Below are positions 1 to 22,596 of a stretch of DNA of 61,018 nt, in pieces. Position 1 is the first letter of the stretch. Each line of letters opens with the position of its first letter. The notes under the pieces were generated by a model, which ran no database searches, was not told the DNA's origin, and saw only the letters and a list, made by a program, of their open reading frames with translations. A program made the position numbers and the translations under genes. The stretch comes from Actinomycetota bacterium (GTDB lineage Bacteria > Actinomycetota > Actinomycetes > Mycobacteriales > HKI-0501): NCBI GenBank assembly GCA_030840805.1, contig JAVEDU010000008.1, positions 1 through 61,018 of the forward strand, in the 5' to 3' direction.

Positions 1-1213
1 GAAACGCGGACCGGTCCACGTGTTCAACGCCGTCGGCCTGGCGGGGCTGACCTCGACGATCACGTTCGACCCGCTGACCGGCTGCACGGACCCGGTCGCC
101 GCCACCGAACGCGCCACCGACCTCCTCACCGCCGCCAGCACGAACACCGCGGGGGACCGGGAGTTCTGGGAGAACCAGGGCCGCCGGGTCCTCGCCGCCT
201 TCCTGCACGCCGCCGCCCTCGGCGGCCTGGGCATGCGGGACGTCCTCGCGTGGGTCGCGAGCCCGGACACCGCCAAGGCCGAGGTCACGTCGCTGCTGCG
301 CAGGAGTCCGGAGCCGTCGTTCGTCGAGGACGCCACCCAGTTCCTGGAGACCAACGACCGGACCCGCTCGTCGATCACCTCCACGATCATGCCCGCCCTC
401 GGCTGGCTCACCTCCGCCACCGCCCGGGCCGCCGCGAGCGGCGGCACCCCGTTCGACGTCGCCGAGCTGCTGCGCACCCGGGCCACCGTGTACCTGCTGG
501 GGGCGGAGGAGACCCACACCGCGCCGCTGGTCGCCGCCCTCACCGGGTACATCGCCCGGCAAGCCCGCCGCCTCGCCGCCACCCGACCCTCGGGCCGGCT
601 GGACCCGCCGCTGACCCTGGTGCTGGACGAGGCCGCGCTGATCTCCCCGGTCCCGCTGGAGTCCTGGACCGCGGACATGGGCGGCCGCGGCGTCACGATC
701 ATCGCCGCGTTCCAGTCCCGCGCCCAGCTGATCGCCCGCTGGGGCCCGGTCGGCGCGGCGATCATCCTCAACAACTCCGGGGCGGTGCTGCTGTTCGGCG
801 GGACCCGGGACAAGGCCGACCTGGAGTACTTCTCCACCCTCGCCGGGGACCGCGACGAACCCGTGGCCGCCTACGACCAGCTGGGGCAGCTCACCTCCCG
901 CACCGTCCGCAAGGTCCCCGTCCTCGCGCCGTCCCAGCTCGCGAACCTGCCGGCCCGCCGGGTCGTCGCGTTCCGCCGCGGCATGCCCGTCACGGTCGGC
1001 CGCGCCCAGATGGCCTGGACCCGGCGTGACGTCCGCGCCGCCGTCCGCGCCGCCCGCCGCGAGGGCCGGGAGGTGTTCCGCGGCGCGGAGCGGGTGCTGC
1101 GCGTTCACGCCGTCCGCGTCGACAACTCCGGCGCGGACAGGGCCGGACACGGCGCGGACGGGGCCTGGGCGGACACGACCGGACAGGAGGTCCCGGCCGA
1201 TGCCGACCACTGA
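1..1213 (+). CDS. TraG/VirD4-like type IV coupling protein, C-terminal part
   Basis: The reading frame is open from the first bases of the window, so the gene begins upstream and only its C-terminal ~400 residues are seen. Features of the TraG/VirD4/TraD coupling ATPase family are visible: a short stretch ending FDPLTGC near the start, and a Walker B-like LVLDEAAL followed by a segment on the ring-interface pattern (GRGVTIIAAFQSRAQL), then ILNNSGAVLLFGG. Walker A must be upstream. These proteins dock the relaxase-DNA complex to the mating channel at the inner membrane. The basic, low-complexity C-terminus overlaps the next gene. It fits with the relaxase two genes downstream. Family assignment is firm; the exact subfamily is not. 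Confidence 0.85.
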   Translation, partial: KRGPVHVFNAVGLAGLTSTITFDPLTGCTDPVAATERATDLLTAASTNTAGDREFWENQGRRVLAAFLHAAALGGLGMRDVLAWVASPDTAKAEVTSLLRRSPEPSFVEDATQFLETNDRTRSSITSTIMPALGWLTSATARAAASGGTPFDVAELLRTRATVYLLGAEETHTAPLVAALTGYIARQARRLAATRPSGRLDPPLTLVLDEAALISPVPLESWTADMGGRGVTIIAAFQSRAQLIARWGPVGAAIILNNSGAVLLFGGTRDKADLEYFSTLAGDRDEPVAAYDQLGQLTSRTVRKVPVLAPSQLANLPARRVVAFRRGMPVTVGRAQMAWTRRDVRAAVRAARREGREVFRGAERVLRVHAVRVDNSGADRAGHGADGAWADTTGQEVPADADH

Positions 1214-2160: not shown

Positions 2161-2381
2161 ACTGCACCCCTCAACCGCTACTCACAGTCACCACAGAGCC
2201 AGAGCCGAACACCGAAAACACGACCAAGAACCGAGCCAGAACACGAGCCAGAACAACAGCGACGAGCCCACCCAAGATCAACAACTCAAGATCAAAGAAG
2301 GACCCGGACCCATGCATCCCGATGACATCGGCACCCCGCCGGCCTCTCCGGGACCGGCGGATCGACACCGGAAAGGACGCC
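2161..2381 (+). other. AC-rich, repeat-containing region before the relaxase; candidate oriT or promoter
   Basis: This 221-base gap is strikingly A/C-rich and poor in G and T compared with its surroundings. It contains repeated GAGCCAGA words (near 2197, 2233 and 2247) and a pair of AAGATCAA words (near 2274 and 2288). No convincing gene is present; the frame open from 2322 is only an upstream extension of the relaxase frame. A base-skewed, repeat-bearing gap immediately before a MobF relaxase is a common place for oriT, which is inference here. The ribosome site for the relaxase (GGAAAGGA, 2370-2377) lies at the end. Confidence 0.4.
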
Positions 2382-5300
2382 ATGCCCGCCAGTTGCGCCC
2401 GCGGCTTCGACTGTGACTATCTGTTGAAGGAGGTCGCCGCCGGGCGGGAGGGGTACTACACCGGCGAGGTCCGCGGCGAGCGGACCGGGCTGGAGCCACC
2501 CGGGGTGTGGGGCGGCCGCGGCGCGGCCGCGCTGGGCCTTACGGGCGTGATCGACCCTGTCCTGATGCACGCCCTCTTCACGCATCGCCTCGACCCCCGG
2601 GATCCGAAGGCGCACGACCCGGCGACGTGGCACCAGGCGGCCCGCCTGGCGTCCCGGCAGGCGCTGCCGACGACCGCGGAGCGGTACGCGGCGCTGCGGG
2701 CGAAGGAGCCGCGGGCCGACGCGGACCGTCGCGCGCAGATGCGCGCGGAGGCCGCGGCCGGCCGGCAGCCGGTCGTGTTGTTCGACCTGACGTGGTCCGC
2801 CCCGAAGGGCGTCGGCGTCGCGTACGCCGGGCTGCGGGCCGCGGAGCTGGAGGCCCGGGAGCGGGGCGACGTCGAGGCCGCCGCGGCGTGGCAGGCCGAG
2901 ATCGCGTGGATCGACGCACTGGCGCTGGAGACACACAAGGTCCAGATGGGCTACCTCGAGGAGCACGCCAGCTACGCCCGGGCGGGGCATCACGGCAACG
3001 GGCAGGGCAGGTGGATCGACGCGGGCCTGTCCTACGGGTCGTTCGTGCAGCACGAGGCCCGGCCGACGGCCGAGCACGCCGAGGGCCGGGGCGGGGACAT
3101 GCACATCCACGTCCACGGCCCGGTGGCGAACGTCGCCCTGTGCTCGGACGGCAAGGCCCGGACCCCGGACGCGACGCTGCTGTATCAGCACTTCGGGGCC
3201 GCCGGCATGACGGCGGACCGTCATTTCGAGGCGGCGTTCACCGAGCATTTCAGGGTGCCGTTCGCGGAGCTGCCCGGCGGGCGGGGCCGCGACCTGCACC
3301 CGTCGGTGGTGTCCTACGCCCTGACGGACGAGTTCTCGTCCCGGACCCGGGCCGTGGCGCGGGCCGAGGAGGCGAAGTTGTCCGCGTTCCGCGCCGAGCG
3401 CGGCCGGGAGCCGACGGCGCGGGAGCGGGGCCGTATCCACGACCAGGCCGGGACCGGGTCGCGGCTGTCGAAGCTGCACGCCGGGCAGACGCCGGACGGG
3501 CAGACCCGGGGCTGGGACACCCAGGCCCGTCAGGCCGGACTGGGCCCCCTGTCCGACGTCGGCGCGGCGGTGACCGCGCGCCGGGGCGCCGAGGTGCCGG
3601 CGGCGGCGCTCGTCCGGGAGGAGGTCCTGGCGCGGACGTTGCACCTGCTGACCGCTGGCGACGCCGACGCGAGGACGAGGCCGACGGACGGCCAGGACCG
3701 CGCCGTCACGGCCAAGGCCGCGTGGAGCAGGTCCGATGCCCTGTTCGCGCTCGGTAAGTGTCTGCCGCCGAACCTCGGCATCGCCCCGGACAAGGTCGGA
3801 GCGCTGCTGGAGGGCCTGACCGACGAGCTGCTGGGGCACCCGGACACGGTCCAGCTGACCCCAGAGCCGCGCGCCGATCACCTGCCTCCGGCGGCCCGGC
3901 TGGCCGACGGGTCGTCGATCTTCGCCCGGCCGGGTCAGGTCCGGTACGCGACCCGCGGGACGCTGCTCGCGGAACAGGTCCTCAGGGAGGCTGCGGTCGA
4001 GCGGGGCGCCTGGCAGCTGACCGCGGACCAGGCGCAGACGGTGATCGACGATTACGCGGCGAACGGGACACCACTGGGCGCCGACCAGGCCGCTGCGGTG
4101 GCCGGGGTCCTGACGTCGGGGGCGCGGCTGGAGGTCCTGTCCGCGCCGGCGGGCACGGGCAAGACGTTCACCGTCGGCGCGATCGCCCGCGGCGTCCACA
4201 CACCCCGGTCGGACGGCGCCACCGGTGGGCGCATCATCGGCCTGGCGGTGTCCCAGAACGCGACCGAGCTCCTGGCCGGGGAGGGACTGGACGCGGCAAG
4301 CAACGTGTCCGCGTTCCTCGCGGCCCAACAGCGCATCGCGGAGGGCCGCGGCCGAGACGGTGACGGCGCCCTGATGCCGTCCGTTCACGACATGCTCGTC
4401 CTCGACGAGGCCAGCATGGTCGCGACGGCGCAGCTGGCTGCGGTCCACGAGCGGGTCCGGGACACCGGCGCGAAGCTGGTCCTCGTCGGGGACGCCGCGC
4501 AGCTGTCCGCGATCGGCGCCGGCGGCGCGTTCCGCGACCTGACCGAAATCGCGCCCCGGTACGAGCTGACCGAGGTCCGCCGGTTCGACGCCCCGTGGGA
4601 GGCCGCGGCGTCGCTGCGGCTCCGCGACGGGGACCCGACGGTCGCCGCCGAGTACGACAAGCACGGCCGGATCGTCGACGGCGGCACCCGGGAACAGGCC
4701 CACTACCTGGCGGCCCGGGACTGGGTCGCCGACCGGCTCGCCGGGTACGACTCGCAGCTGATCGTCGGCTCGAACGCCGACGCGGCCCGGTTGTCCGGGT
4801 ACGTCCGGGAGGAACTGGTCCGGCTCGGCGTCGTCGCCGCGGACGGGGTGAGGCTCGACCTGCAGGGCACCTACGCCGGCGTCGGGGACCGGGTCGAGTA
4901 CCGGCTCAACGGCTGGCAGCTACGCGGCTATGAGGGCAACACCACGGTGCCGGTGAACCGGCGCAGCGGGGAGGTCGTCGAGGTCCGCGACGACGGCGGG
5001 ATCATCACCGCCACGCCGGACGGGCAGCGCCTGGTGCTGCCGAGCAGCTACGTCGGGGATCACCTGTCCCTCGCGTACGCCTCCACGGCGCACGCCGTCC
5101 AGGGCCGTACCGTCGACCGGACCCGCAACGTCGGGGTCACGGACCTGTACGTGCCGATGACCCGTGGCCGGGAGAGCAACACCGCGTACATGATCACCCT
5201 GCCGCTGGCGGCGGACGCGAAGCCGGGGCAGACCCGCGCCGTCGACCGGCTGGACGCCCGCGCCGAGTTCGCCCGCTTGGTGGCCCAGTCCGCGGAGCCC

Positions 5301-7313
5301 ACGGACCTGTCGGCGCACGCGGTCCGGGAGCGGGCCGAGGCCGAGGCCCGTTCGGCGCGGACGCTGCTGGCGGAGCTCCGCGAGGACCTGGACCTGGCCC
5401 TCGCCCGCAGCACCGAGAACGCCCTGGACCGGCTCGCCGCCGCCGGGCGGCTCACCGTCGAGCAGCGGCAGCAGATCGCCGCCGACCCCGCGTACCGGTC
5501 CCTCGACCAGCTGCTGCAGGTCGCGGAGCTGGCCGGCCATGACCGGGCACGGGTGCTCACCGACGCGATCGGCGCCGGATTCCTCGACAATGCCCGCTCG
5601 TACGCGAAGGTGCTGCACCACCGGGTCCACGCCCAGCTCGACGGGCAGCTGACGCCGCACCTGAGCGACCTGCGGGAGCTGATCCCGGCCGGGCACGACC
5701 CGGCATGGACCGGGCGGCTCGTCGACGACGTCAACCGGCTCGACAACCGCCGCCAGGAACTCGGCGAGCAGACCGCCGTCCGCAGAGACCAGTGGGCCGT
5801 GCGGGCCCTCGGACCGGTCCCCGAGACCGGCCTGGACCGGCTGGACTGGGAGGACCGGGCCGGCTGGGCCGCGCTGGCCCGGGAGGTGCTGGGCCGGGAC
5901 AACGCCGCCGACCCGCTCGGCGCCGCCCCGCCGGCCGGGGACCACCTCGGCCGGGTCCTGTTCCGGACCGGGCACCACGCCCTCGGGCTGCCCGAGGCCG
6001 GCGCGGAGGAGGCGGAGCTGTCCGACGGCGGCCTCTACACCCGCTGGCACGCCTGGCAGCGCGACCTCGACGCGGCACCCCACTACGTCGCGGACATGCT
6101 GTCCGAGACGTACAGCCAGGCCCGGGAGGCCCGGTCCACGGGACTGATCTGGCAGGCGCGGGCGGCCGTCGAGGCCGACCCCGCCGCGGCGGATCGTCTC
6201 CGCGGCGAGGCGGCGGTGAAGCTCGCGACGGCCGACGAACTGGACCGGCGCGCCGCGGAACTGGAGACCGTCGACGGCGCCCGCGCCGCTTGGTGGGCGG
6301 CCACCGCCGTCACCCGGGACCTGGCCGAGCGCGCCCGGATCGAGGCCGCGATGCGCGGGATCGACGTCGACGACCCGGGACCCCGGATCACCGCGGCCGA
6401 GGTGCTGGCCGACCAGGAGACCGCGGCGCGGGCGGAAGACCCGCACCGCGAGGTGACCGACGAACTGGACCTGGCCGCCGCCGCCACAGCCCGCGCGACC
6501 GCGCACGACGAGGCGGTGCACGGGACCGCCCCGGACGAGCTGACCCGGAGCGGCGGGCACGTCGACGTGCTCGACGATGCCGCCGAGGTCGCGGTGACAG
6601 CCGACGCCGACGCCGAACCGGCCGCCGACGCGGGCCGGGAACCCGCTCCCGAGGCGACGGACGGAACGTCCGCCGGCAGCGGGGCCGCTCGGGACTCCGC
6701 GGACACGGCGCCGACGCTCGGTGATCCCGACGCCGGGCAGGAGCCGTCGCGGGACGGCGACGACCCGACCGACGGTCGGTCCGCGCCGAGGACTCGTCAA
6801 TCCGAGGCCCGCGACGCGGCCGAGGACGAGCGCGTTGACACCGCCGACCCGGCGGACGCGTCGTCGGCGGCCGAGGGGGTCGACGAGCAGCGGCCGGCAC
6901 AGGCGAGCCCGCCGTCGCTCCGGGAGACGGCCAGCCGTGCCGAGGGCGAGGACCGGGACCCCGAGCAGCTGCGCCGGGTGCCCGCCCCGGACGAGACCGC
7001 CGCGATGGTCGAACGCGCGAAGGACGCCACCCGGGAGCTGGCGAACCGGGACGCCGAAGACGCGGCCGCGGACGCGGCAGAGGAAGCCGAACGGGCGGAG
7101 GCCGCCGCCCGCGACGCCGCCCAGCCGCCGGCGGCCGGGGCGCAGGACGAGGACGTCTTGGCGCGCGGACCACCCCGCACCGCCCCGAGGGACGCCCACG
7201 CCCGTGCGCGGGCGTGGACGGCACTCGTCAGGTCAGGCCGGCGGGCATCGGCGGGACTGTGCGGCGGCGTTCCGCCGGGACGCCGTCGGCGAACGCGGTC
7301 GCCATGCGGTTGA
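2382..7313 (+). CDS. MobF-family conjugative relaxase-helicase (TraA-like)
   Basis: A 1643-residue protein. ATG 2382 is preferred over upstream ATG 2322 because GGAAAGGA precedes it and the N-terminus then matches MobF starts. The relaxase domain (residues 1 to about 350) has paired tyrosines Y25-Y26 in GREGYY and the metal-binding three-histidine motif H241-I-H-V-H245. The helicase domain (about 570-980) has Walker A GTGKT near 588, Walker B VLDEAS, and a UvrD-like C-terminal motif HAVQGRTVD followed by VPMTRGR. The protein would nick at oriT, stay attached to the 5' end and unwind the transferred strand. The last several hundred residues are acidic, low-complexity and helical. The extreme C-terminus runs across the convergent nuclease gene (86-base overlap) and looks non-native after about 7200, so the true stop may have been lost. 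Confidence 0.92.
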   Translation: MPASCARGFDCDYLLKEVAAGREGYYTGEVRGERTGLEPPGVWGGRGAAALGLTGVIDPVLMHALFTHRLDPRDPKAHDPATWHQAARLASRQALPTTAERYAALRAKEPRADADRRAQMRAEAAAGRQPVVLFDLTWSAPKGVGVAYAGLRAAELEARERGDVEAAAAWQAEIAWIDALALETHKVQMGYLEEHASYARAGHHGNGQGRWIDAGLSYGSFVQHEARPTAEHAEGRGGDMHIHVHGPVANVALCSDGKARTPDATLLYQHFGAAGMTADRHFEAAFTEHFRVPFAELPGGRGRDLHPSVVSYALTDEFSSRTRAVARAEEAKLSAFRAERGREPTARERGRIHDQAGTGSRLSKLHAGQTPDGQTRGWDTQARQAGLGPLSDVGAAVTARRGAEVPAAALVREEVLARTLHLLTAGDADARTRPTDGQDRAVTAKAAWSRSDALFALGKCLPPNLGIAPDKVGALLEGLTDELLGHPDTVQLTPEPRADHLPPAARLADGSSIFARPGQVRYATRGTLLAEQVLREAAVERGAWQLTADQAQTVIDDYAANGTPLGADQAAAVAGVLTSGARLEVLSAPAGTGKTFTVGAIARGVHTPRSDGATGGRIIGLAVSQNATELLAGEGLDAASNVSAFLAAQQRIAEGRGRDGDGALMPSVHDMLVLDEASMVATAQLAAVHERVRDTGAKLVLVGDAAQLSAIGAGGAFRDLTEIAPRYELTEVRRFDAPWEAAASLRLRDGDPTVAAEYDKHGRIVDGGTREQAHYLAARDWVADRLAGYDSQLIVGSNADAARLSGYVREELVRLGVVAADGVRLDLQGTYAGVGDRVEYRLNGWQLRGYEGNTTVPVNRRSGEVVEVRDDGGIITATPDGQRLVLPSSYVGDHLSLAYASTAHAVQGRTVDRTRNVGVTDLYVPMTRGRESNTAYMITLPLAADAKPGQTRAVDRLDARAEFARLVAQSAEPTDLSAHAVRERAEAEARSARTLLAELREDLDLALARSTENALDRLAAAGRLTVEQRQQIAADPAYRSLDQLLQVAELAGHDRARVLTDAIGAGFLDNARSYAKVLHHRVHAQLDGQLTPHLSDLRELIPAGHDPAWTGRLVDDVNRLDNRRQELGEQTAVRRDQWAVRALGPVPETGLDRLDWEDRAGWAALAREVLGRDNAADPLGAAPPAGDHLGRVLFRTGHHALGLPEAGAEEAELSDGGLYTRWHAWQRDLDAAPHYVADMLSETYSQAREARSTGLIWQARAAVEADPAAADRLRGEAAVKLATADELDRRAAELETVDGARAAWWAATAVTRDLAERARIEAAMRGIDVDDPGPRITAAEVLADQETAARAEDPHREVTDELDLAAAATARATAHDEAVHGTAPDELTRSGGHVDVLDDAAEVAVTADADAEPAADAGREPAPEATDGTSAGSGAARDSADTAPTLGDPDAGQEPSRDGDDPTDGRSAPRTRQSEARDAAEDERVDTADPADASSAAEGVDEQRPAQASPPSLRETASRAEGEDRDPEQLRRVPAPDETAAMVERAKDATRELANRDAEDAAADAAEEAERAEAAARDAAQPPAAGAQDEDVLARGPPRTAPRDAHARARAWTALVRSGRRASAGLCGGVPPGRRRRTRSPCG

Positions 7314-13060: not shown

Positions 13061-13157
13061 CCCCCGCCCGGTGCCGCGGCCGCGGCCGCGGCCGCGCCCG
13101 TGGCCCGGCGCCGGGCACCCGGACCCTTTTCTCGTCTCGTCCACGCAGGAGGACACC

Positions 13158-14624
13158 ATGTCCGACCAGACCCACCCCACCCCCGACCGGCCACCGGCCG
13201 CCGAGTTCGCCATGCTCGACCCGGCGACCCTGCTCACCGACCACAACCTCCGCCCACCCCGCACCGACGCCGCGTTCGCCGACCTCGTCGCCTCCATCCG
13301 CGAGCACGGCGTCCTCGTCCCGATCGTCGCGACCCGCGACCACCAGGGCGTGCGGGTCCGGTGCGGGCACCGCCGCGCCCTCGCCGCCGTCGAGGCCGGA
13401 CGAGAGATGGTGCCGGTCGTCGTCTACACCGGCGCCCTCACCGACGCGACCGCCGCCGAGGTCGACCGGATCCTCGGCCAGCACGCCGAGAACACCCACC
13501 GAGTAGGGCTCACCACCGGCGAAACCGTCGCCGCGTTCGGGCAGCTCGCCGCGCTCGGCGTCACCCCGGCCCGGATCGCCCGCCGGTCCAAGACCCCCCG
13601 CCGCACCGTCGACGCCGCGCTGGCCGCCGCGGGGTCGGAGGTCGCGTCCAAGGCGACCGGGCGGTGGGACTTCCTCACCCTCGACGACGCCGCCGCACTC
13701 GCCGAGTTCGACGACGACCCCGACGCCATCAAGCAGCTGGTTACCGCCGCCAAGACGGGGGAGAACACCGCCCACCTCGCACAGCGCCTCCGCGACCAGC
13801 GCGCCACCACGACGGCGATCGCCACCCTCGCCACCCAGCTCAAGGCGGCGGGCGTGCCGGTGATCGCCGAGCCGCCCTACGACGAGAAGACCATCCGCCG
13901 CCTCGAGCACCTCCGCCACGACGGGAAGCCCCTCACGGCTGAGTCCCACGCCGCCTGCCCCGGGCACGCCGCCTACGTCAAGCGGTCCTGGGGCCAGGAG
14001 AAGGCCGAGACGGTGTACGTGTGCGTCCACCCCCGCCTCCACGGCCACACCGACCTGAACAGCCGCACCCCGGCAGCCGACCGGCCCACCAGCGACCAGG
14101 AGAAGGCCGAGCGGCGGCGGATCCGCGCCAACAACGACGCGTGGCGCTCCGCCGAGAAGGTCCGCCGCGCCTGGCTGCGGGACTTCCTCACCCGCCGGAC
14201 CCCACCCCAGGGCTCGGGAGCGTTCGTCGCCACCGCCCTCGCCCACGGCGACCACGCCCTCACCCGGGCGTTGACCAACGGCCACCATCGTGCCCGGGAC
14301 CTGTTCCGACTCGGCCACCTCACCGACGAACCTGAGAGCACCGTGGACCGCCGGCGGGGCAAGACCCTCACCGGCCTGCTCGACGGCGCCAGCGACAACC
14401 GCGCCCTCGTCGTCGCCCTCGGCATCATCCTCGCCGCCCACGAAGACACCTGGACCACCGACACGTGGCGACGACCCAGCACCGCCAACGCCCGCTACCT
14501 GACGTTCCTCATGACCAACGGCTATACCCCGGCCGAGGTCGAACAGCTCGTCCTCGGCGCCGCCATCCCCGTAACCGGCGCCGACTCGGAACCCGACGCC
14601 GAGGAGGCGGACACAGATCAGTGA
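13158..14624 (+). CDS. ParB-like nuclease/partition domain protein
   Basis: A 488-residue protein from ATG 13158 behind AGGAGGACACC. Residues about 17-110 form a ParB/Srx N-terminal domain: PATLLTDHNLRPP, then IREHGVLVPIVATRD, and the ParB box VRCGHRRALAAVEAG. A helix-turn-helix-like region follows (TGETVAAFGQLAALGVTPARIAR, residues about 118-145). The C-terminal 300 residues are helical, with several Cys/His (AACPGH, VCVHP), and are not recognised. No ParA ATPase is adjacent, so it may act as a DNA-binding regulator or plasmid-type ParB rather than a classical partition protein. A strong hairpin terminator follows immediately. Confidence 0.82.
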   Translation: MSDQTHPTPDRPPAAEFAMLDPATLLTDHNLRPPRTDAAFADLVASIREHGVLVPIVATRDHQGVRVRCGHRRALAAVEAGREMVPVVVYTGALTDATAAEVDRILGQHAENTHRVGLTTGETVAAFGQLAALGVTPARIARRSKTPRRTVDAALAAAGSEVASKATGRWDFLTLDDAAALAEFDDDPDAIKQLVTAAKTGENTAHLAQRLRDQRATTTAIATLATQLKAAGVPVIAEPPYDEKTIRRLEHLRHDGKPLTAESHAACPGHAAYVKRSWGQEKAETVYVCVHPRLHGHTDLNSRTPAADRPTSDQEKAERRRIRANNDAWRSAEKVRRAWLRDFLTRRTPPQGSGAFVATALAHGDHALTRALTNGHHRARDLFRLGHLTDEPESTVDRRRGKTLTGLLDGASDNRALVVALGIILAAHEDTWTTDTWRRPSTANARYLTFLMTNGYTPAEVEQLVLGAAIPVTGADSEPDAEEADTDQ

Positions 14625-14664: not shown

Positions 14665-15217
14665 CACCGACCTCGGCCGAGTGCTGGACCACAGCCCGCC
14701 AGCCGCGCGGTGTTCTGCTCCCGCGCGCTAGACAAGCTGCTCAACGACATCGGGAAGGGCCGCACGCCCACGCGCTCCGCGCAGCGTCGGCGCAATGGCC
14801 ACATCGTGGCCGTGATGCGGCTCGAGGACGAGCGGACCCCCTACGAAACGCCACGCGCACCGCGTGGCTGCTCAACCGCCGGGACACTTCCCCGGCGCCC
14901 ATCGAGCTCTGAGACGGCAGCACGGAGCAGTACCCCCAGGGCCGCCTGTAATGAATCTCTAGGAGAGAACGTGCCCAGGAACACGAACAGCGGACCCGCA
15001 GCACGATACGAAGACTTCGGTCGGTTCTCCGCCGGGCGCGGACAACCTGATCCGTGTCCTGGCCGGTCCGTCCGAGCTCAAACGCGTCGCACTGCGGGCG
15101 CAGACCATGGCGGAGCGGCGCAGGATCAGGCCCGCCGCCGGATGACGTCGGTGATGCGGCTCGCCACGGCGATGACGCTTCCTGGGAATTGGCTGCAGGC
15201 GGCGAGTACGTCGTCAG
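14665..15217. other. Gene debris between the ParB and qat modules
   Basis: About 550 bases without an intact gene. Two coding-like fragments are visible in different frames. One, near 14730-14830, reads LDKLLNDIGKGRTPTRSAQ then IVAVMRLED. The other, at 15041-15145, reads DNLIRVLAGPSELKRVALRA and ends at a TGA, but has no start codon in frame after the TAG at 14960-14962. GGAGAGAAC before GTG 14971 looks like a ribosome site, but that frame soon loses coding character. This is probably the scar of earlier insertions at the cargo boundary. Confidence 0.4.
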
Positions 15218-15973
15218 TCAAGCTGGCGGATGCTCACTGTGGTAGCGAAGTCGTTGTTCATTCTGCGCGACAGCCTTCCGAGCTTCACCAGGCGATATAT
15301 CCCAGAGCCGCGCCAGGTGATCGAGTGTTCCGATTAGATCGGAAGGAACAGCTGAGCGGCTCCCGGAGCGAGCGAAGGGACCGTCGGTTTCCAGCAGGAC
15401 GCGTTCCGGCGGGAGCCGTCGGAGCAGCGGTCCGGCCTTCGTCGACCGGACCATGGCTGGGTTGATCGAGAACCAAAGCCCTGCAGCAAGTGCGTCGTCT
15501 ACAGCGGCTAGAGGTCCGGTGTACCAGTGCAGGATCGCTGACACTTGCGCTTGTGCCAGTTGTGCGATGGTCTCTCGCTCGGCACCGCGACTGTGGACGG
15601 TGACAGGTCGAGTTCGCACCTGGGGGTCGGCCAAGATGCTCTCGAATACGCGGAGCTGCTGCTTGCGGGTTTTGACTCCAGCGCGAGAAAAGTCGAGTCC
15701 GATCTCGCCGATCCATGTGGCCTGTGGCAGGAGCCGGAGGAATCTGGCTAGATCGTGAGGAGACGCATTCCCTGCGCGAAGCGGGTGAAAGCCCAGAGCG
15801 ACGTCGAGACCGTCGCGTCGACCCAAGCGAGTGCGCAGGAGGCGGTACTTGCCGGGATCCTCGGTCACCGCGATCACGTGGATCCCTGCGCGGTGGGCGT
15901 CCTCCAGCACGGCGACCGGGTTGTCGTAGGCGTCGATATGGCAGTGGGTATCGGTCAACACTGGAACAGTCAC
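15218..15973 (-). CDS. qatD: QatD, TatD-family hydrolase of the Qat anti-phage system
   Basis: 251 residues, minus strand, GTG start at 15973 overlapping the qatC stop by four bases (GTGA). TatD-type metal ligands are all present: H10 and H12 in DTHCHID, E90 in IGEIGLDF, H127 in TVHSRG, H149 in ILHWYTG and D197 in LLETDGPF. TatD proteins are metal-dependent nucleases/hydrolases with a TIM-barrel fold. On its own it could be a housekeeping TatD. As the last of four overlapping genes behind a KAP ATPase, a QatB-like and a QueC-like gene, it is the D component of the Qat defence system described experimentally in E. coli. The metal site looks intact. Confidence 0.92.
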   Translation of the reverse strand: MTVPVLTDTHCHIDAYDNPVAVLEDAHRAGIHVIAVTEDPGKYRLLRTRLGRRDGLDVALGFHPLRAGNASPHDLARFLRLLPQATWIGEIGLDFSRAGVKTRKQQLRVFESILADPQVRTRPVTVHSRGAERETIAQLAQAQVSAILHWYTGPLAAVDDALAAGLWFSINPAMVRSTKAGPLLRRLPPERVLLETDGPFARSGSRSAVPSDLIGTLDHLARLWDISPGEARKAVAQNEQRLRYHSEHPPA

Positions 15974-17340
15974 GATCGAGATTCCAGCAGCTCAGCCAGA
16001 GCCCCGCGCGCTCCACCCGCAAGCCAGGCGCGAAGCTCGGCGAGTCCACGTCGCCAGACGCCGGTGAAGGCGGCGCGCTCGCCTTGTGGGAGCGGGCCGT
16101 TGCGCAGGACGTCGCGATCCGGTCGATCCGCGAAGGCTCCGGCGATCACGGCCCGCAGGTCGGCTCCGCGGCGGCTTCGACGGTTGAGAAGGATCGTGAG
16201 GTCCTGCTCGTCGAAGACGTTGTAGGCGTACTCGTCATGGTCCCATTCCACGTGCGCCAGCGAGGCGCGGCGAATCAGACAGGGGAAGCAGTATCCGCAG
16301 TTGCCCTGCTTACGGCCAACGTACCGGGCCGTCTCGGGATGTGAGCAGGAGACGCTCAGTGGGGCAAGGCGCCGCAGCAGTTCCGCGTTCCGGGATTCTG
16401 CGAGTATCTCGCCCTTGGTGCGCAGCCGGTACGGATTGATCACCGGGTTCGGAACGCCGATCGCGGTGGCGGCAGTGGCGAGTTGGCGCATGAAGTGTGG
16501 ATGGGTGGTGCGGGTGCTCGCGCTACCCACGCGGGCTCGGGTGAGGGGCACGTTGATGCCGATGAAGCCGTTTTCCGGCACGTACACCGGCGTCTCTGGT
16601 CCGTCAGCGGAGGCGAGCGCCAGGGCGGTGGACAGGAAGAGCAGTGACCGAGATCGAGTGGTGTTCTCGCGTGTCCTGGGAAGCGAGCGTGCCTGGTGGA
16701 CGTTGGCCGGTGCGGGCCGCAGGTAGAGGCGGCGGGAAGTGATGCGCTCGGCGCCGTAGTGTGCGTTGAGTTCGTCGAGGAGGCGCTGCTGGGCGGTGGA
16801 TGCCTGTCCGCCTTCGTGGTGGGACAGAAGGCACAGCCGCCGTTTGGGATCCTCTTCCAGAAGATCGATGACGCCGCACAGCGAGTCGAGACCACCTGAG
16901 AACAGGCACACGCCGTCCACGTCGAGCCCGATCGGCGGGTCATCGGTGCGAACGCCGGCCGCGCCGGCGAGCGGGTGCCGCTCGGAGCCGTAGGGACTAA
17001 TCTCCCAGTGGTCACCGGTCAGGAACCGGAGCGCCGCCTCGAAGCCTGCGCCGCCCCAGGCGGCAGTTTCTTCGACGGGAAGTCGGAGGGTGACCTCCCT
17101 CGTCCAAGAGTCCGGTGTGCCGCGCCGCTCGGTGGTCTTGTCCGCGCAGTACACGGCCGCGCCCAGCAGGAAGAGGTCGGCGGCTGGCCGGGGTGGTCGC
17201 CAGCCAGCAAAGAAGTCCGCTCCAGTGTCGCTGGCTTGGATCGTGGCCGCGGTCCGCGCCGGGGCCCAGTCGAGCAGGCGGACGTCGTCGGGTTGGGTCA
17301 CAGCGGTGGTCAGATCGGTGCGCACGAGATAAGTGGTCAC
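15970..17340 (-). CDS. qatC: QatC, QueC-like PP-loop enzyme of the Qat anti-phage system
   Basis: 456 residues, GTG start at 17340 overlapping the qatB stop by four bases. The PP-loop ATP-pyrophosphatase motif SGGLDS is at 148-153, preceded by a ~140-residue N-terminal extension absent from housekeeping QueC. A four-cysteine zinc site in the QueC pattern is complete: C332, then C348-GY-C351-FP-C354. QueC makes 7-cyano-7-deazaguanine, and the Qat homologue is thought to act on a nucleobase or protein target within defence. No other queuosine or deazapurine genes are nearby, which argues against a tRNA or DNA modification cluster. The length and extension agree with QatC. Confidence 0.92.
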   Translation of the reverse strand: MTTYLVRTDLTTAVTQPDDVRLLDWAPARTAATIQASDTGADFFAGWRPPRPAADLFLLGAAVYCADKTTERRGTPDSWTREVTLRLPVEETAAWGGAGFEAALRFLTGDHWEISPYGSERHPLAGAAGVRTDDPPIGLDVDGVCLFSGGLDSLCGVIDLLEEDPKRRLCLLSHHEGGQASTAQQRLLDELNAHYGAERITSRRLYLRPAPANVHQARSLPRTRENTTRSRSLLFLSTALALASADGPETPVYVPENGFIGINVPLTRARVGSASTRTTHPHFMRQLATAATAIGVPNPVINPYRLRTKGEILAESRNAELLRRLAPLSVSCSHPETARYVGRKQGNCGYCFPCLIRRASLAHVEWDHDEYAYNVFDEQDLTILLNRRSRRGADLRAVIAGAFADRPDRDVLRNGPLPQGERAAFTGVWRRGLAELRAWLAGGARGALAELLESRS

Positions 17341-18074
17341 TGTGCGTCTCCGTCCAGTCCTTGCAGGGCCTCGTAGGTCATGCGAACGGCGTCCTCGGCG
17401 ATCTGGCGTCCCTCCGGGCCAGCCCAGTCAACTGTGAAGGGGTCGTTGGGGATGCGAAGCGAGACCAGAACCCGGATGATGTCGCGCATTTCCGCGTCGG
17501 CTTGGCGGACGGCGTGCGGGTCGGTGATGCGGCTGAGGCGTTCGGCGATGACCGGAACCCGGTTGTAGACGTACTGGGCGAGGAACGTTTCCAGCAGGGT
17601 GGGCAGGTTTTCCCGGGAGATGGTCATCTCGGCGGTGTCCGTCAACTCTGCCCAGGTATCAGCGTCTCCGAAGACCTCATCCAGCACGTCGCACGCGGCG
17701 TCGCGGGCGGCTTGGGAGTCCAGGTCGTCGCCGTCTCCGGCGATGAAGGTGATCAGTTCGTCGAGCACGTCGAACCGGTTCCGGCCGACGAGGGCGGCCA
17801 GTCCCAGGGAGGTCAGCGTGTCTTCAAGCCCGGGTCCGCCGACTCCAGCAAGCAAGGCACCGAGACGCTGGACGCCGGCGCGCCCGGCACGAGCGCCGGC
17901 TGCAGCACCACCAGCTCCGCCCAACACGGGAACGTGGCGAGCTAGCACCCGCTGGGCATGTGTATGGGTGCTCGGAGACCCAGAGGTAAGCCCGCGCACG
18001 TAGGACGCTGTCGCGTGCTTAAGTGGGGTCCACGCTCCGCCGCTGCCCGCAGTGCGATCCGCCGAGGTGCCCAT
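17337..18074 (-). CDS. qatB: QatB of the Qat anti-phage system
   Basis: 245 residues, ATG at 18074 overlapping the qatA stop (ATGA). The N-terminus has the QatB-like pattern MGTS...GSGGAW, followed by a Gly/Ala-rich stretch (GGAGGAAAGARAG) and a mostly helical C-terminal half. There are no catalytic motifs, as known for QatB, whose biochemical role is unclear. Identification rests mainly on position between the KAP ATPase and the QueC-like gene, on size and on the N-terminal pattern. The Gly/Ala segment could be a flexible or membrane-associated element. Confidence 0.87.
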   Translation of the reverse strand: MGTSADRTAGSGGAWTPLKHATASYVRGLTSGSPSTHTHAQRVLARHVPVLGGAGGAAAGARAGRAGVQRLGALLAGVGGPGLEDTLTSLGLAALVGRNRFDVLDELITFIAGDGDDLDSQAARDAACDVLDEVFGDADTWAELTDTAEMTISRENLPTLLETFLAQYVYNRVPVIAERLSRITDPHAVRQADAEMRDIIRVLVSLRIPNDPFTVDWAGPEGRQIAEDAVRMTYEALQGLDGDAQ

Positions 18075-20086
18075 CAGCGTCGGCCGCTGCGTCGTTGTGC
18101 CTCACGCGCGGCGCTGATAACGCTCTTCAGGCCAGGTGCGTCGCTGCTTTCCCACCGGTCGAGCAGGGCGGACACCGTCGGGTTACCTACAGGGAGCCGA
18201 AGGACGGCGTTCGCGGCCTGCGCGCGTGGGACGGCCTCGGATGGGATCCGCATCAAGGCGTCGCAGATCACCGGCAGGGTGTCGGGGGCACGCTCAGCGA
18301 GTTCGAGCGCGGTGACGAAAGCCGGGCCGCCCGGTCGACGCGCCAGCACCTCCACCAACGCCTCCACGAGCTGGACACGCTCGGCATTAGGGAGCTTTCC
18401 GATCTCGTCACATGCGAGCCGTCGCTGCCCGGCAACCTCGGCCTGCGCCCTGGTGAGAAGCTCCTGCAGGTGCGGAGGTAGCCGCGTGACGGCGATGCTG
18501 AAGGCGAGCTTGTCGCGGGAATAGGTGAAGTACGGCGCTAGGTCAATCTCGCCGAGCGGAGGCTCCAACCGGAGCCACGCACGCACGTGGGGTTTGACCG
18601 ACCACGCCTGTACTTCTTCGGCGACCTGCGGCTGTTGGGTAGCCTTTCGCCCCCGCTTGGAGGTCGGTGATCGGCGAGCCCCCGAAGACTCGTCGGCGGT
18701 GTCGGCCACATCTTGCTGAGATGTGTCCCCATCGCCGCCCGGTTCGAAGGTGGTCGACCCACCTCGCGCGATTGACTCCGCAGCCGCGAGCTCCGAGATG
18801 GGGCCAAGTCCGGTGAGTTGCCAGTCGAACAGGCGCTGGAAGTCGCTGAAGTGTTGTTCCTCCAGGACCATGAGCTTGGCGAGGACGGGCAGCTCGAGGG
18901 TGATCTTCCGGCGCTGCGCGCTGCGGTGCTTGAGCAACAGGTTGTTAAGAAACCGCTTGAGCTGCCTCGGGTTCCCCCGCAGTCCGCCCCCGAGGACCTC
19001 AGCGATGCTCGCCGCCCAGTTCAGGTCGCGCACCAGGTCGGGCGGCACGTCGCCGAGGACGGCTCCGGCCATGCCGACGGTGAACGCCACCTGCAGGTTA
19101 CCGGCCTCGCGGCGCCGGCGGGTCTCGTCCACGACCTTGGCGAACTGTGCATCATCGAGGTGCAGTTCGGCCAGCAACAGGTTGACGTAGGTGTCGGCCT
19201 CCGGGGCGGACAGAGGCGGGATAGCCACTTTGAGCTGCAGCATCTTCTCCAGATAATCGGCACCGATCCCAGCGCCGTCGGGCCGCCGCAGCTGCGGGTA
19301 GCGCGAGTCAATCGCGGACTCCACGACCGCCTGGTTGGCCGCCAGGACGTAGGCGGTCTTGGGGGTATTGAGGAAAAGCCGGATCGCCTCGAAGGTGTCC
19401 ACCACGGTCTCGGGAAGGCACCGGTCGAGGTCATCGATAAACACAACCACGGCGTCAAGGTGTTCCAGCGTCGAGACGACCTTTGCGAACTCCGCCCGGA
19501 ACCGCCCTGCGTCCGTGATCGCCTCGGCCGGGCCCTCGCCCGACACCGGCTGCTCAGCCTTGGGATCTTCCAGCAGCTTGTTGGCCTCGCTCGCTGCCGC
19601 ATTCACGCCCGCCCTGGTCAAATCCAAGACCTGCGGATCCATGCCTGAATCCATCGCCAGAAGCGCAAGAGGAGCCGCGGCTTGCGCGGTAGACACCGCG
19701 ACCCGCCCGCCCCTGCGCCCCCACCGACCGAGGCCCTGAGCGAATCTGCGGAGCCTGGACATCTGTTCCTGCTGATCGCCGCCGGCTCGTGCGCCGACCG
19801 CGTCGAGCACGGTCGTCATCAACGCCGCTTTGACGTCGTCGTAGTCCTCGTACTGCCAGGGGCTGAACTCGACACACACGTACCGCGACGGCGACTCCTC
19901 GTCGTCACGGATCTTCAGCAGCTCCTGCCGGGTGATCCGCATCAGGCTGCTCTTCCCGGAGCCCCAATCCCCGAGCAGGCCCACCGTCAGCGGGAGCAGC
20001 CGCGGCTCTGTGAGTGCCACGAAGAGGGTGTCCACCAGGAAGTCGAAGCCGAGAAGGTCAACCTCGGTTTCATTGTCCGCCCACAT
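18074..20086 (-). CDS. qatA: QatA, KAP-family P-loop ATPase of the Qat anti-phage system
   Basis: 670 residues, ATG 20086 with GGAGCGGGG upstream. KAP NTPase features are clear: Walker A GDWGSGKSS at 39-47, EFSPWQYED (73-81) typical of KAP proteins, Walker B VVFIDDLDRC ending near 223, and a sensor region ending GNPRQLKRFLNNLLLK. A charged, disordered linker with a K/R patch (SKRGRK) separates the ATPase from a helical C-terminal region. It is the first gene of a four-gene operon with ATGA/GTGA overlaps throughout, which implies translational coupling and fixed stoichiometry. The 217 bases upstream hold no clear gene and probably carry the promoter. Confidence 0.92.
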   Translation of the reverse strand: MWADNETEVDLLGFDFLVDTLFVALTEPRLLPLTVGLLGDWGSGKSSLMRITRQELLKIRDDEESPSRYVCVEFSPWQYEDYDDVKAALMTTVLDAVGARAGGDQQEQMSRLRRFAQGLGRWGRRGGRVAVSTAQAAAPLALLAMDSGMDPQVLDLTRAGVNAAASEANKLLEDPKAEQPVSGEGPAEAITDAGRFRAEFAKVVSTLEHLDAVVVFIDDLDRCLPETVVDTFEAIRLFLNTPKTAYVLAANQAVVESAIDSRYPQLRRPDGAGIGADYLEKMLQLKVAIPPLSAPEADTYVNLLLAELHLDDAQFAKVVDETRRRREAGNLQVAFTVGMAGAVLGDVPPDLVRDLNWAASIAEVLGGGLRGNPRQLKRFLNNLLLKHRSAQRRKITLELPVLAKLMVLEEQHFSDFQRLFDWQLTGLGPISELAAAESIARGGSTTFEPGGDGDTSQQDVADTADESSGARRSPTSKRGRKATQQPQVAEEVQAWSVKPHVRAWLRLEPPLGEIDLAPYFTYSRDKLAFSIAVTRLPPHLQELLTRAQAEVAGQRRLACDEIGKLPNAERVQLVEALVEVLARRPGGPAFVTALELAERAPDTLPVICDALMRIPSEAVPRAQAANAVLRLPVGNPTVSALLDRWESSDAPGLKSVISAAREAQRRSGRR

Positions 20087-20303
20087 CGCCCCGCTCCGTC
20101 CGACGCCGAACTCGAGGTATTCGCTCCTCGGCCGCCGCGGCCGAAGGCGAAGTCGAGGATAGATCGATCGTCAGCGTCGATGGTCATTTTCACATCCGTG
20201 CCGCTGCAGGTTATGCACCATTGAGGGGCAAAGCGGACAGCAATCGAGTAATCGGCGCGCGCAGGGTTGTCCATGATGGGGACCGCCCCGGTCAGGGACG
20301 TGA

Positions 20304-20969: not shown

Positions 20970-22412
20970 CTAGAGCGGCTTGACGTTGACATCTACAGGA
21001 CGAGTCGAGCTGACGACCGCGCGACGACCCCTCGAGACGTCGACCAAGCCTTCGGCTTGGAGCAACGCCATGGCGCGGTGCGCAGTACCTACTGCGACAG
21101 TGTGCTTCTGGGCAAGCGCGACAACAGTCGGTAGCTGCTCGCCTGGACCGAAGACGCCGCTCGCGATCGCGTCGCGCAGCTCTGCAGCGATGGTTTCGTA
21201 GGGGCTCATCGGACGCTCTGGCGCCACTACATGCTGGGGCATGATTCCGGCCATCGTGTCCGCGGCCCGCTGGCCGGCCGCGTCGACCCACGCCGCGTAG
21301 ATCCTCAGCGTTGTCGCTCCACCGCTGCCGTGGCCCAGCCGGCCGGCCACGGTCCGCAGGTCGACGCCGGCGGCGAGCAGCTCGGTGGCGGAGTAGTGCC
21401 GCAGCGAGTGCAGCCGGGTGGAGCGCAGCTTCAGCTTGATCGCCAGCCGCCTGTACCGCTGGGTGAGGGAGTGCGGTGGGTAGGGAGCCGAGCCGTCCGG
21501 CGCGGGGGAGAAGAGCCACGCCTCGTCGTCCAGGTCGCAGCCAAGCGCGGCGCACCGCGTCCCGACCATGTCGCGATGCGCTCGCAGGAGGCCGACGGTG
21601 CGCTCGTCCAGGGCCACCCGGCGGTGCTGTCCCGTCTTGGTCTCCTTCTCGCGGACGCCGGCCTTCGGCTGTGCGTTGGCCCGCTGCACGAGCAGGGTGC
21701 CGCGTTCGAAGTCGACGTGGGACCACCGCAACGCGCTCACCTCGCCACGCCGCAGGCCCGTCACCATCGTCAACCACAGCAGGAGCCCCCAGTCGGGATC
21801 GGCCCACGCGGTATTCAGCAGCGCGGCGGCCTCCGCGGCACTCGGTGGATCAGGATCCGGCCGGCTGGGGGAGGGCGCCCGCGCCAGTGAGGCCCTGTTC
21901 ACGCCGAGGTGCCGCCACCGGACCGCCAACTCCAGGGCGCCGCTGAGGATGAAGTGGATCTTCCGCACGGTGCTGCTGCTCAGTGGCCGGCAGGTGTGGC
22001 CAGCGCGCCGCCGCCCGCCGCACAGCTCGCGGCACTGCTGGAGCCTCGCGTAGAAGCGCTCCAGCATCTCGGCGTCGAGCTTGGCCGCGAGCAGGTCGCC
22101 GAAGGCCGGTGTGATGTACAGCCGGATCAGGTCGTCGTACCGCTCTCGCGTGGTCTCTCCGAGCTTCGCCACCTGGAGCCACTGCGCGATCGCCTGGCTC
22201 ACCGTCAGGGCCGACTTGGGGTGCGTCTCCTCGTCGACCTGCCGCTGGAGCTGGGTGAGGGCGACCTCGGCCTCGGCATAGCTCCCCGCCGTAGCCTTCA
22301 GCCGGCGTTCTTTGCCCGTGAGCGGATCCGCGCCGCCATACACGATCGCGCGGAAGCTGCCGGAGGGGAGCTCCTCGATGTGCCCGCGGGGACGCCGCTT
22401 GCGGGGTGGCAC
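20970..22412 (-). CDS. Tyrosine integrase with C-terminal GntR-type HTH domain
   Basis: 480 residues, GTG start at 22412. An N-terminal Arm-type DNA-binding region and core-binding domain (about 65-165) precede the catalytic domain with R221 (TGLRRGE), K259, H335-xx-R338 (LHSLRH), H361 (LGH) and nucleophile Y372 (RIYAAW). After about residue 400 there is a complete GntR-like winged helix (SPYETIAAELRDAIASG, PGEQLPT, VGTAHRAMALLQAEGLV, residues about 402-467). The recombinase should integrate and excise the element at the adjacent tRNA-Arg. The HTH may let the integrase bind and regulate its own locus or act as a directionality element. The fusion is in one uninterrupted frame. The gene starts 112 bases from the tRNA 3' end. 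Confidence 0.95.
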   Translation of the reverse strand: MPPRKRRPRGHIEELPSGSFRAIVYGGADPLTGKERRLKATAGSYAEAEVALTQLQRQVDEETHPKSALTVSQAIAQWLQVAKLGETTRERYDDLIRLYITPAFGDLLAAKLDAEMLERFYARLQQCRELCGGRRRAGHTCRPLSSSTVRKIHFILSGALELAVRWRHLGVNRASLARAPSPSRPDPDPPSAAEAAALLNTAWADPDWGLLLWLTMVTGLRRGEVSALRWSHVDFERGTLLVQRANAQPKAGVREKETKTGQHRRVALDERTVGLLRAHRDMVGTRCAALGCDLDDEAWLFSPAPDGSAPYPPHSLTQRYRRLAIKLKLRSTRLHSLRHYSATELLAAGVDLRTVAGRLGHGSGGATTLRIYAAWVDAAGQRAADTMAGIMPQHVVAPERPMSPYETIAAELRDAIASGVFGPGEQLPTVVALAQKHTVAVGTAHRAMALLQAEGLVDVSRGRRAVVSSTRPVDVNVKPL

Positions 22413-22477: not shown

Positions 22478-22514
22478 AAGGCCCCTCACCGCGTTTCCGC
22501 TGGTGAGGGGCCTT
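22478..22514 (-). terminator. Terminator between tRNA-Arg and the integrase
   Basis: A perfect 13-bp stem (AAGGCCCCTCACC with GGTGAGGGGCCTT) with an 11-base loop lies just past the tRNA 3' end. It would stop tRNA transcription before the integrase gene, which lies on the same strand. Confidence 0.8.
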
Positions 22515-22524
22515 GTCAGAAGAG

Positions 22525-22596
22525 TGCCCCCGGCAGGATTCGAACCTGCGCCACCGCCTCCGGAGGGCGGTGCTCTATCCCCTGAGCTACGGGGGC
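22525..22596 (-). tRNA. tRNA-Arg (anticodon CCG), probable attachment site
   Basis: Read on the minus strand, the acceptor stem GCCCCCG/CGGGGGC, D-arm GCTC...GAGC, anticodon stem CCGCC/GGCGG with loop CTCCGGA (anticodon CCG) and T-arm GCAGG-TTCGAAT-CCTGC all pair. The discriminator is A, and no CCA is encoded. The integrase lies directly downstream of the 3' end, so the 3' half of this gene is the likely att core. The matching copy at the other end of the element is not in the window. Confidence 0.95.

Follow-up and report, generated by a model that had tools for sequence, protein, structure and literature searches.

The stretch of DNA analyzed here (positions 1 to 61,018 of contig JAVEDU010000008.1, from an Actinomycetota bacterium; hereafter the window) contains a complete, intact qatABCD operon of the known Qat family. 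Its four genes occupy positions 15218–20086 of the minus strand, in the A-B-C-D order of known Qat operons. The first, qatA (18074..20086), encodes a KAP-family P-loop NTPase of 670 residues (PADLOC QatA, E = 3.1e-87; KAP_NTPase, 5.9e-38) with Walker motifs. It is followed by qatB (17337..18074), whose all-helical product of 245 residues starts with MGTS (PADLOC, 9.7e-13; NCBIfam, 1.8e-19) and is the putative acceptor of an N-terminal modification; by qatC (15970..17340), which encodes a QueC-like PP-loop enzyme of 456 residues with N- and C-terminal extensions (PADLOC, 1.6e-98); and by qatD (15218..15973), which encodes a TatD-family metal-dependent nuclease of 251 residues (PADLOC, 5.9e-51; TatD_DNase, 7.6e-40). 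An earlier reading of this DNA (the original prediction) had placed a KAP ATPase, a QatB-like protein, a QueC-like enzyme and a TatD-type hydrolase at these positions and on this strand, and had suggested profile searches as a check. Open reading frames and profiles bear it out: PADLOC and NCBIfam recover all four proteins, and Pfam also recovers QatA and QatD. QatB has no match in Pfam. QatC scores 344.1 bits with its NCBIfam model, above the cut-off of 280, and aligns with the QatC chains 9vlk_A (5.5e-53) and 9zee_B (9.2e-47); its match to the canonical QueC model of Pfam is weak (19.3 bits, cut-off 22).

All four genes are full-length, and the catalytic residues that we checked are kept. 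QatA has Walker A at residues 39–46 and VFIDD at 215–219. QatC has SGGLDS at 148–153 and the four zinc cysteines originally proposed, at 332, 348, 351 and 354; the metal-site residues checked in QatD are likewise present (HCH at 10–12, GEIGLD at 89–94, H127, H149 and D197). The meanings that we attach to the motifs of QatA, QatC and QatD are in part those usual for these families and in part taken from Qat papers. Relative to Amycolatopsis roodepoortensis, whose QatC and QatB proteins are 86% and 94% identical to those of the window, the ratio of nonsynonymous to synonymous substitution (dN/dS) is 0.10–0.16 for all four genes, indicating that the operon has been maintained under purifying selection. 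On this basis we reject a decayed operon, and the claim of intactness holds. The qatB/qatC and qatC/qatD overlaps are both GTGA, as had been said; the ATGA given for qatA/qatB was mistaken, as these genes share a single base (TGATG). Judged from its genes, the operon is very probably competent for defense.

QatB is the most divergent part of the operon. Its AlphaFold2 model has a mean predicted local distance difference test (pLDDT) score of 89.5. In Foldseek at E ≤ 0.001, this model matches only the PDB chains 9y01_A (E = 6.3e-5; template modeling (TM) scores 0.58/0.65) and 9y02_A (TM 0.57/0.65), at 22% identity; both are QatB of QatB-QatC complexes, and the first match to any other protein has an E value of 1.4. 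Structure prediction, which had also been suggested as a check, therefore returns QatB chains only. The profile NF041924, which finds the window's QatB at 1.8e-19, recovers the whole aligned set of 29 proteins (E ≤ 0.001).

The N-terminal tail of this QatB is short. MGTS is kept, the first long helix of the predicted model starts at residue 15, leaving about 14 residues before it, and residues 1–8 are the only segment with pLDDT below 50; P-x-W is absent from residues 6–32. According to the main text of a 2026 structural paper (PMC13279940), the N-terminal tail of Pseudomonas aeruginosa QatB is disordered, is 65 residues long and starts with MGTS, and defense is abolished by G2D and also by deletion of residues 16–22, which include the conserved P16 and W18. 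The same text gives QatB tails as 30–90 residues long and blames wrong starts for most of the missing tails inspected (PMC13279940). That explanation is inapplicable to the short-tailed proteins, because they begin at MGTS. A miscalled start was also considered for the window and rejected: both tail types start at the conserved MGTS, and the start codon in the window shares a base with the qatA stop. A long tail with P16 and W18 has been described for many QatB proteins and is not known to define the family.

We compared the window with 80 named loci, the best 80 of 584 confirmed relatives as ranked by likeness to the window's QatC. These loci were fetched with two QatC patterns, one of them the ST-x-T motif, so that the presence of this motif in 79 of 81 QatC sequences (not L073 or L074) is partly built in. 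An MGTS-type QatB start lies beside qatC in all 80 loci (79 MGTS, one MGTT); 79 were found by a script that required a G-T-(S/T) start and 220–330 residues, and that of L042 (Kibdelosporangium philippinense) was added by eye. Tail length was measured from Met1 to a reference column in the window and in 79 of the loci (L042 left out), and falls into two groups, of 42–48 residues (29 sequences, including the window) and 65–119 residues (51 sequences). Every one of the 29 short-tailed proteins reads MGTS-x(9–11)-W, and none has P-x-W in residues 6–32; conversely, P-x-W is found in 45 of the 51 long-tailed proteins, none of which reads MGTS-x(9–11)-W. The QatB of L042 is also short-tailed. That 28 of the 79 measured loci share the short tail, in each case beside qatC, makes it a variant within the Qat family. 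In a tree of the 81 QatC sequences the tail types separate on one branch (support 88/98), although long branches and composition differences make deep placements unsure. Tail type changes once in 90% of 200 bootstrap trees, and 0 of 500 shuffles gave a count as low. Short-tailed members of the 80-locus set come from Actinomycetota, some Bacillota, Desulfobacca and one Vulcanimicrobiota genome, and other Bacillota in the set (Streptococcus, Peptoniphilus) are long-tailed. Beyond the set, QatB of Actinomycetota is long-tailed in L024 (genome G067) and of a third kind in L019, L020, L026 and L027; short tails are thus not the rule in this phylum, and the two-type split holds for the best 80 of the 584 relatives only, given their ranking by likeness to the window's QatC.

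Some QatC-like genes lie outside full operons. In three loci of one genus (g9; genomes G379, G363 and G022), a QatC-like gene stands beside a frame of 255–280 codons that starts with MGTS (L033:4230–6337, L030:4349–6451, L029:4771–6582), and no QatA or QatD match is seen in the 10.5–11 kb fetched. The MGTS partner in L033 is not recognized by PADLOC, and BLASTP does not align it significantly with QatB. These pairs are perhaps a minimal two-gene relative of QatBC. Two further QatC-like genes, L032:4813–6201 and L034:4499–5935 (PADLOC QatC, 9.5e-60 and 2.5e-42), have no QatA, QatB or QatD match nearby; in L032, an MGTS-starting frame of 228 codons lies upstream. Viral contigs scanned with QatC patterns gave two matching stretches, neither of them a relative.

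QatC is thought to join 7-carboxy-7-deazaguanine (CDG) or a similar compound to Gly2 of QatB, and carboxydeazaguanylation is its proposed reaction in the text of PMC13329287. In the main text of PMC13279940, the Tyr/Asp positions that bind CDG are Thr278/Thr280 in P. aeruginosa QatC, CDG was not seen in the QatC crystal, and activity could not be reconstituted; the discussion terms the identity of what QatC attaches to QatB an open question. T276 and T278 of the window's QatC align with Thr278 and Thr280, and the Tyr/Asp pair for nucleobase recognition is likewise missing. Profile searches of the host genome (95.18% complete, 1.3% contaminated) gave no match for PTPS/QueD, QueE or TGT. Canonical QueC was not found either: the sole PF06508 match at E ≤ 0.001 scores 22.4 bits and covers positions 5–60 of a 771-codon frame. 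In 14 control genomes, the same families were matched in 9 (PTPS), 14 (TGT), 10 (QueE) and 12 (QueC). With no QueD or QueE found, CDG made by the host is probably not the acid used by QatC. We also reject QatC as a canonical QueC engaged in nucleoside modification, on its weak Pfam match and the partner genes not found. The original prediction had argued against a nucleoside-modification role from the lack of any other deazapurine gene; this now extends to the whole genome, where QueD, canonical QueC and TGT were not found. That result also challenges the usual model, not considered there, of deazaguanylation of the protein itself.

The same pattern recurs in other Qat genomes. QatC is found at E ≤ 1e-20 in 15 of 398 sampled Actinomycetota genomes; PTPS is present in 6 of these 15 and in 160 of all 398, so that no association is seen in this one sample (Fisher p = 1). 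Further tests covered 32 QatC-bearing genomes, of which 23 lack PTPS (17 named Qat genomes together with G000, G287, G227, G010, G254 and G341); G151, G289 and G385, which have QatC and no PTPS, and in which QatA, QatB and QatD were not recognized, were left out of the further QueE, PF06508 and TGT tests. No PF06508 match above 30 bits was found in 21 of the 23, the exceptions being Bacillus sp. ISL-55 (285 bits) and Sphingomonas trueperi (236 bits). Seven of the 21 (G000, G227, G010, G399, G402, G404 and G405) also lack a TGT match, and all seven have all four qat genes; they include Amycolatopsis palatopharyngis, Frankia gtarii, Mycolicibacter icosiumassiliensis and Nocardioides luteus. The other 14, which have TGT, may be salvagers. 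G227 is the clearest case: a single contig rated 100% complete, it carries all four qat genes, and none of the four pathway families is matched in it. Its QatB starts with MGTS and belongs to the third kind; its QatC, at 256.9 bits, falls under the NCBIfam cut-off. In G254 and G287 the profile does not recognize QatB, and G341 has a weak QatB match (4e-5); an MGTS-type frame was found for G254, and none for G287 or G341. Taken together, these genomes speak against endogenous CDG as the general substrate of QatC, although they do not prove the point. In K. philippinense (L042, G401) and Prauserella endophytica (L047, G406), the PTPS gene adjoins a QueE-like radical-SAM gene (62 and 67 bits), and neither genome has a TGT match or a PF06508 match above 30 bits; such a pair is possibly part of a deazapurine natural-product cluster.

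The operon lies within a 5.1-kb cassette (15101..20209) that is 84–87% identical at the DNA level, by blastn, to four Pseudonocardiaceae loci: L039 (A. roodepoortensis) and L047 (P. endophytica) over 15101–20209, L041 (Lentzea albida) to 20204 and L040 (A. palatopharyngis) to 20189. Its ends are sharp and its flanks unrelated in the four loci, and G+C content is 67–68% in 2-kb blocks between 14 and 22 kb, as against 73% for the window. Mobility of the operon had been proposed, and the shared stretch with unrelated flanks supports it. The integrase, the ParB-like gene and a 158-residue open reading frame of the window do not occur in the four relatives (fetched stretches of 7.8–13.4 kb), suggesting that the cassette travels apart from the element in which it now sits. 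Upstream of qatA, the leader (20087..20209, minus strand) is conserved in the four relatives and is a probable promoter region; a scan of it for the sigma-70 consensus gave no site.

At its other end, the cassette includes the start of a fifth gene (15126..15221, minus strand), consisting of 31 codons and a stop, with a TTG start that overlaps the qatD stop. Thirty residues are 70% identical to the relatives' protein (E = 3e-9), after which the sequence diverges from their DNA. The gene debris noted beside qatD in the original prediction thus includes the cut-off start of a gene that is whole in the four relatives, directly behind qatD (L039:8177–9280, L040:6191–7294, L041:8173–9276, L047:8177–9280). 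There it encodes, from ATG, an AbiJ_NTD3 protein of 367 residues. Pfam, run on two of the proteins, gives PF18860 at 2.7e-59 (L039) and 4.4e-58 (L041), with a weak DUF559 match under the cut-off C-terminal to the AbiJ_NTD3 domain. Among 101 loci (L018–L118), 4 were found to have the fifth gene, which is therefore an accessory of a small group and not a core part. In L042 (1602–5263), the match to qatA is split into two parts some 1.6 kb from each other, so this operon may be interrupted.

The surroundings are those of an integrative element. A tyrosine integrase of 480 residues with a C-terminal GntR-type DNA-binding domain in the same frame (20970..22412, minus strand; Phage_integrase, 8.5e-18; GntR, 1.7e-13) is faced by the 3′ end of an intact tRNA-Arg(CCG) gene (22524..22596, minus strand; ARAGORN), which from its position is the probable attachment site. 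A near-perfect palindrome of 37 bases (22478–22514), perhaps a terminator, lies between the two. The element backbone to the left includes a ParB-like protein (13071..14624, plus strand; ParB_N, 3.8e-7) and, at the contig start, a coupling protein of the TraG/TraD type (20..1213, plus strand; TraG-D_C, 1.5e-19); NERD, pentapeptide-repeat and helicase-type proteins are also found on this side. To the right of the tRNA gene, arginyl-tRNA synthetase, homoserine dehydrogenase and cobalamin-synthesis genes look chromosomal. Within the window, where the contig begins at the coupling protein, there is no second copy of at least 13 bases of the tRNA gene, and in the 10 left-hand open reading frames tested Pfam recognized no relaxase and no conjugation ATPase. 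A protein of 1663 residues (2322–7313) has only AAA helicase-type domains, from residue 585 onward, and its first 580 residues could hold an unrecognized relaxase. The original description of the operon as cargo of an integrative and conjugative element is therefore upheld only in part, as regards the integrase next to tRNA-Arg, the coupling protein and the ParB-like protein; the attachment repeat that would complete it was not found in the window, nor were a relaxase and a conjugation ATPase in the reading frames tested. We regard the element as integrative and possibly conjugative, with its other end beyond the contig.

We propose that this is a qatABCD of the short-tailed branch, carried on a cassette that would have entered an integrase-bearing element at tRNA-Arg. 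The core of the system would be made up of QatB and QatC. After removal of Met1, Gly2 of the short QatB tail would enter the QatC active site, where QatC would activate a small carboxylic acid at the expense of ATP and join it to that glycine; in this host, the acid is probably something other than CDG of the cell's own making. QatA, an NTPase, and QatD, a nuclease, may widen the range of phages that are blocked. In P. aeruginosa, as published main text describes, QatB and QatC form a complex, the glycine motif and the QatC active site are needed, QatA binds DNA, and deleting QatA and QatD narrowed the phage range. The chemistry, and its transfer to the short-tailed branch, we infer. The glycine-acceptor step at QatB Gly2 seems likely; that the acid is something other than CDG is favored less strongly, and the explanation as a whole is, on a rough estimate, somewhat better than an even bet. 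More tentatively, Qat may represent an independent type of N-terminal protein modification in immunity for which a glycine tethered by about 14 residues would suffice, an idea that we hold at a little under even chances.

Several points weigh against this proposal, and some of them favor a standard Qat system in which QatC joins CDG to QatB Gly2 as Cap9 does, the CDG being salvaged, supplied by phage or made by genes that were missed or unassembled. Enzyme family and N-terminal glycine logic are those of Cap9, and carboxydeazaguanylation is what has been proposed for QatC (PMC13329287). A PTPS-family gene occurs in 32 and is missing from 17 of the 49 named Qat genomes searched; by hand count, it occurs in 15 of 26 short-tailed and 17 of 23 long-tailed ones. 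That search left out L051, L049 (from the strain of L048) and a further 29 named loci. PF01242 also covers proteins other than QueD. The host genome is 95.18% complete, so that a pathway could have been missed, and no completeness figure accompanies the genomes reached via named loci. Absence of QueE is the weakest of the four tests, as the model under-scores distant QueE: in the 32 genomes, seven of which had also been in an earlier QueE search, it gave 19.5–67.2 bits in 19 and none above cut-off, and three of these matches adjoin a PTPS or QueC gene (G401, G406 and G439). CDG could also come from outside the cell or from the phage, and E. coli, where Qat works, makes CDG. Set against this are the Thr/Thr pair in place of Tyr/Asp, the crystal without CDG and the activity that could not be reconstituted (main text of PMC13279940), as well as the seven genomes with four qat genes and without PTPS, TGT or a PF06508 match above 30 bits. 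On balance we consider a CDG-based system rather unlikely.

Returning to the preferred reading, transfer from P. aeruginosa is not simple, because residues 16–22 are essential there and the short tails lack P-x-W. QatA (346.8 of 600 bits), QatB (70.4 of 100) and QatD (201.4 of 230) score below the naming thresholds of NCBIfam. In an annotated plasmid operon of D. radiodurans, qatB, qatC and qatD are named and the KAP gene is likewise without the QatA name. An inactive or decaying remnant, its fifth gene cut off and its protection lost, would fit the truncation of that gene and the roughly 500 bases without a recognized gene that run up to the ParB-like gene, yet the four qat genes are full-length, under purifying selection and with the checked catalytic residues in place, and the fifth gene is not a core part; we consider this very improbable. 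The operon's place in a mobile element, with a ParB-like gene on one side and the integrase on the other, could instead point to a non-defense role, such as stabilizing the element or excluding competing plasmids. Given that the cassette has unrelated flanks in its relatives and that homologues defend against phages, we give this role very little credence.

Beyond the known family, two features are new to our knowledge: the short-tailed branch, and Qat hosts in which, repeatedly, no CDG pathway could be detected. Complete Qat operons without detected queuosine-type genes are a natural argument against an endogenous CDG substrate, and in such hosts the true modification of QatB could be identified; together with the short-tailed branch, they make the question of the QatC substrate directly testable. 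A short-tailed QatB is also a smaller tool, which does without a segment essential in P. aeruginosa, and the AbiJ_NTD3 gene that follows qatD in the four near relatives hints at a possible extra effector. In the text consulted of PMC13279940 and PMC13329287, supplements aside, neither a short-tailed QatB starting with MGTS nor a host without CDG is described, and the main text of PMC10482375 does not contain 'qat'.

Finally, we compare the window with known systems. The qatABCD of the P. aeruginosa and E. coli type reportedly goes back to Gao et al. (2020). The window shares with it the gene families and their order, MGTS, SGGxDS, the zinc cysteines, the Thr/Thr pair and the QatB fold. It differs in having about 14 residues before the QatB helix as against 30–90, no P-x-W, a QatB only 22% identical to 9y01_A, and a host in which no CDG pathway was found. 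Compared with canonical QueC of queuosine synthesis, QatC has the same PP-loop and zinc site but a weak Pfam match, and QueD, QueE and TGT were not found in its host. Type IV cyclic oligonucleotide-based antiphage signaling systems (CBASS), with Cap9 and a CD-NTase, likewise combine a QueC-family ligase with an N-terminal glycine (MGGS versus MGTS), as given in the main text of PMC13279940 and the abstract of PMC11996544; in Qat, however, QatB lacks the CD-NTase fold, and QatC has extensions and lacks the Tyr/Asp pair that recognizes CDG. The qatABCD operons of L039, L040, L041 and L047 are the closest counterparts, with 84–87% DNA identity, the same short QatB tail and the same leader, and they differ from that of the window in carrying a whole fifth gene behind qatD.

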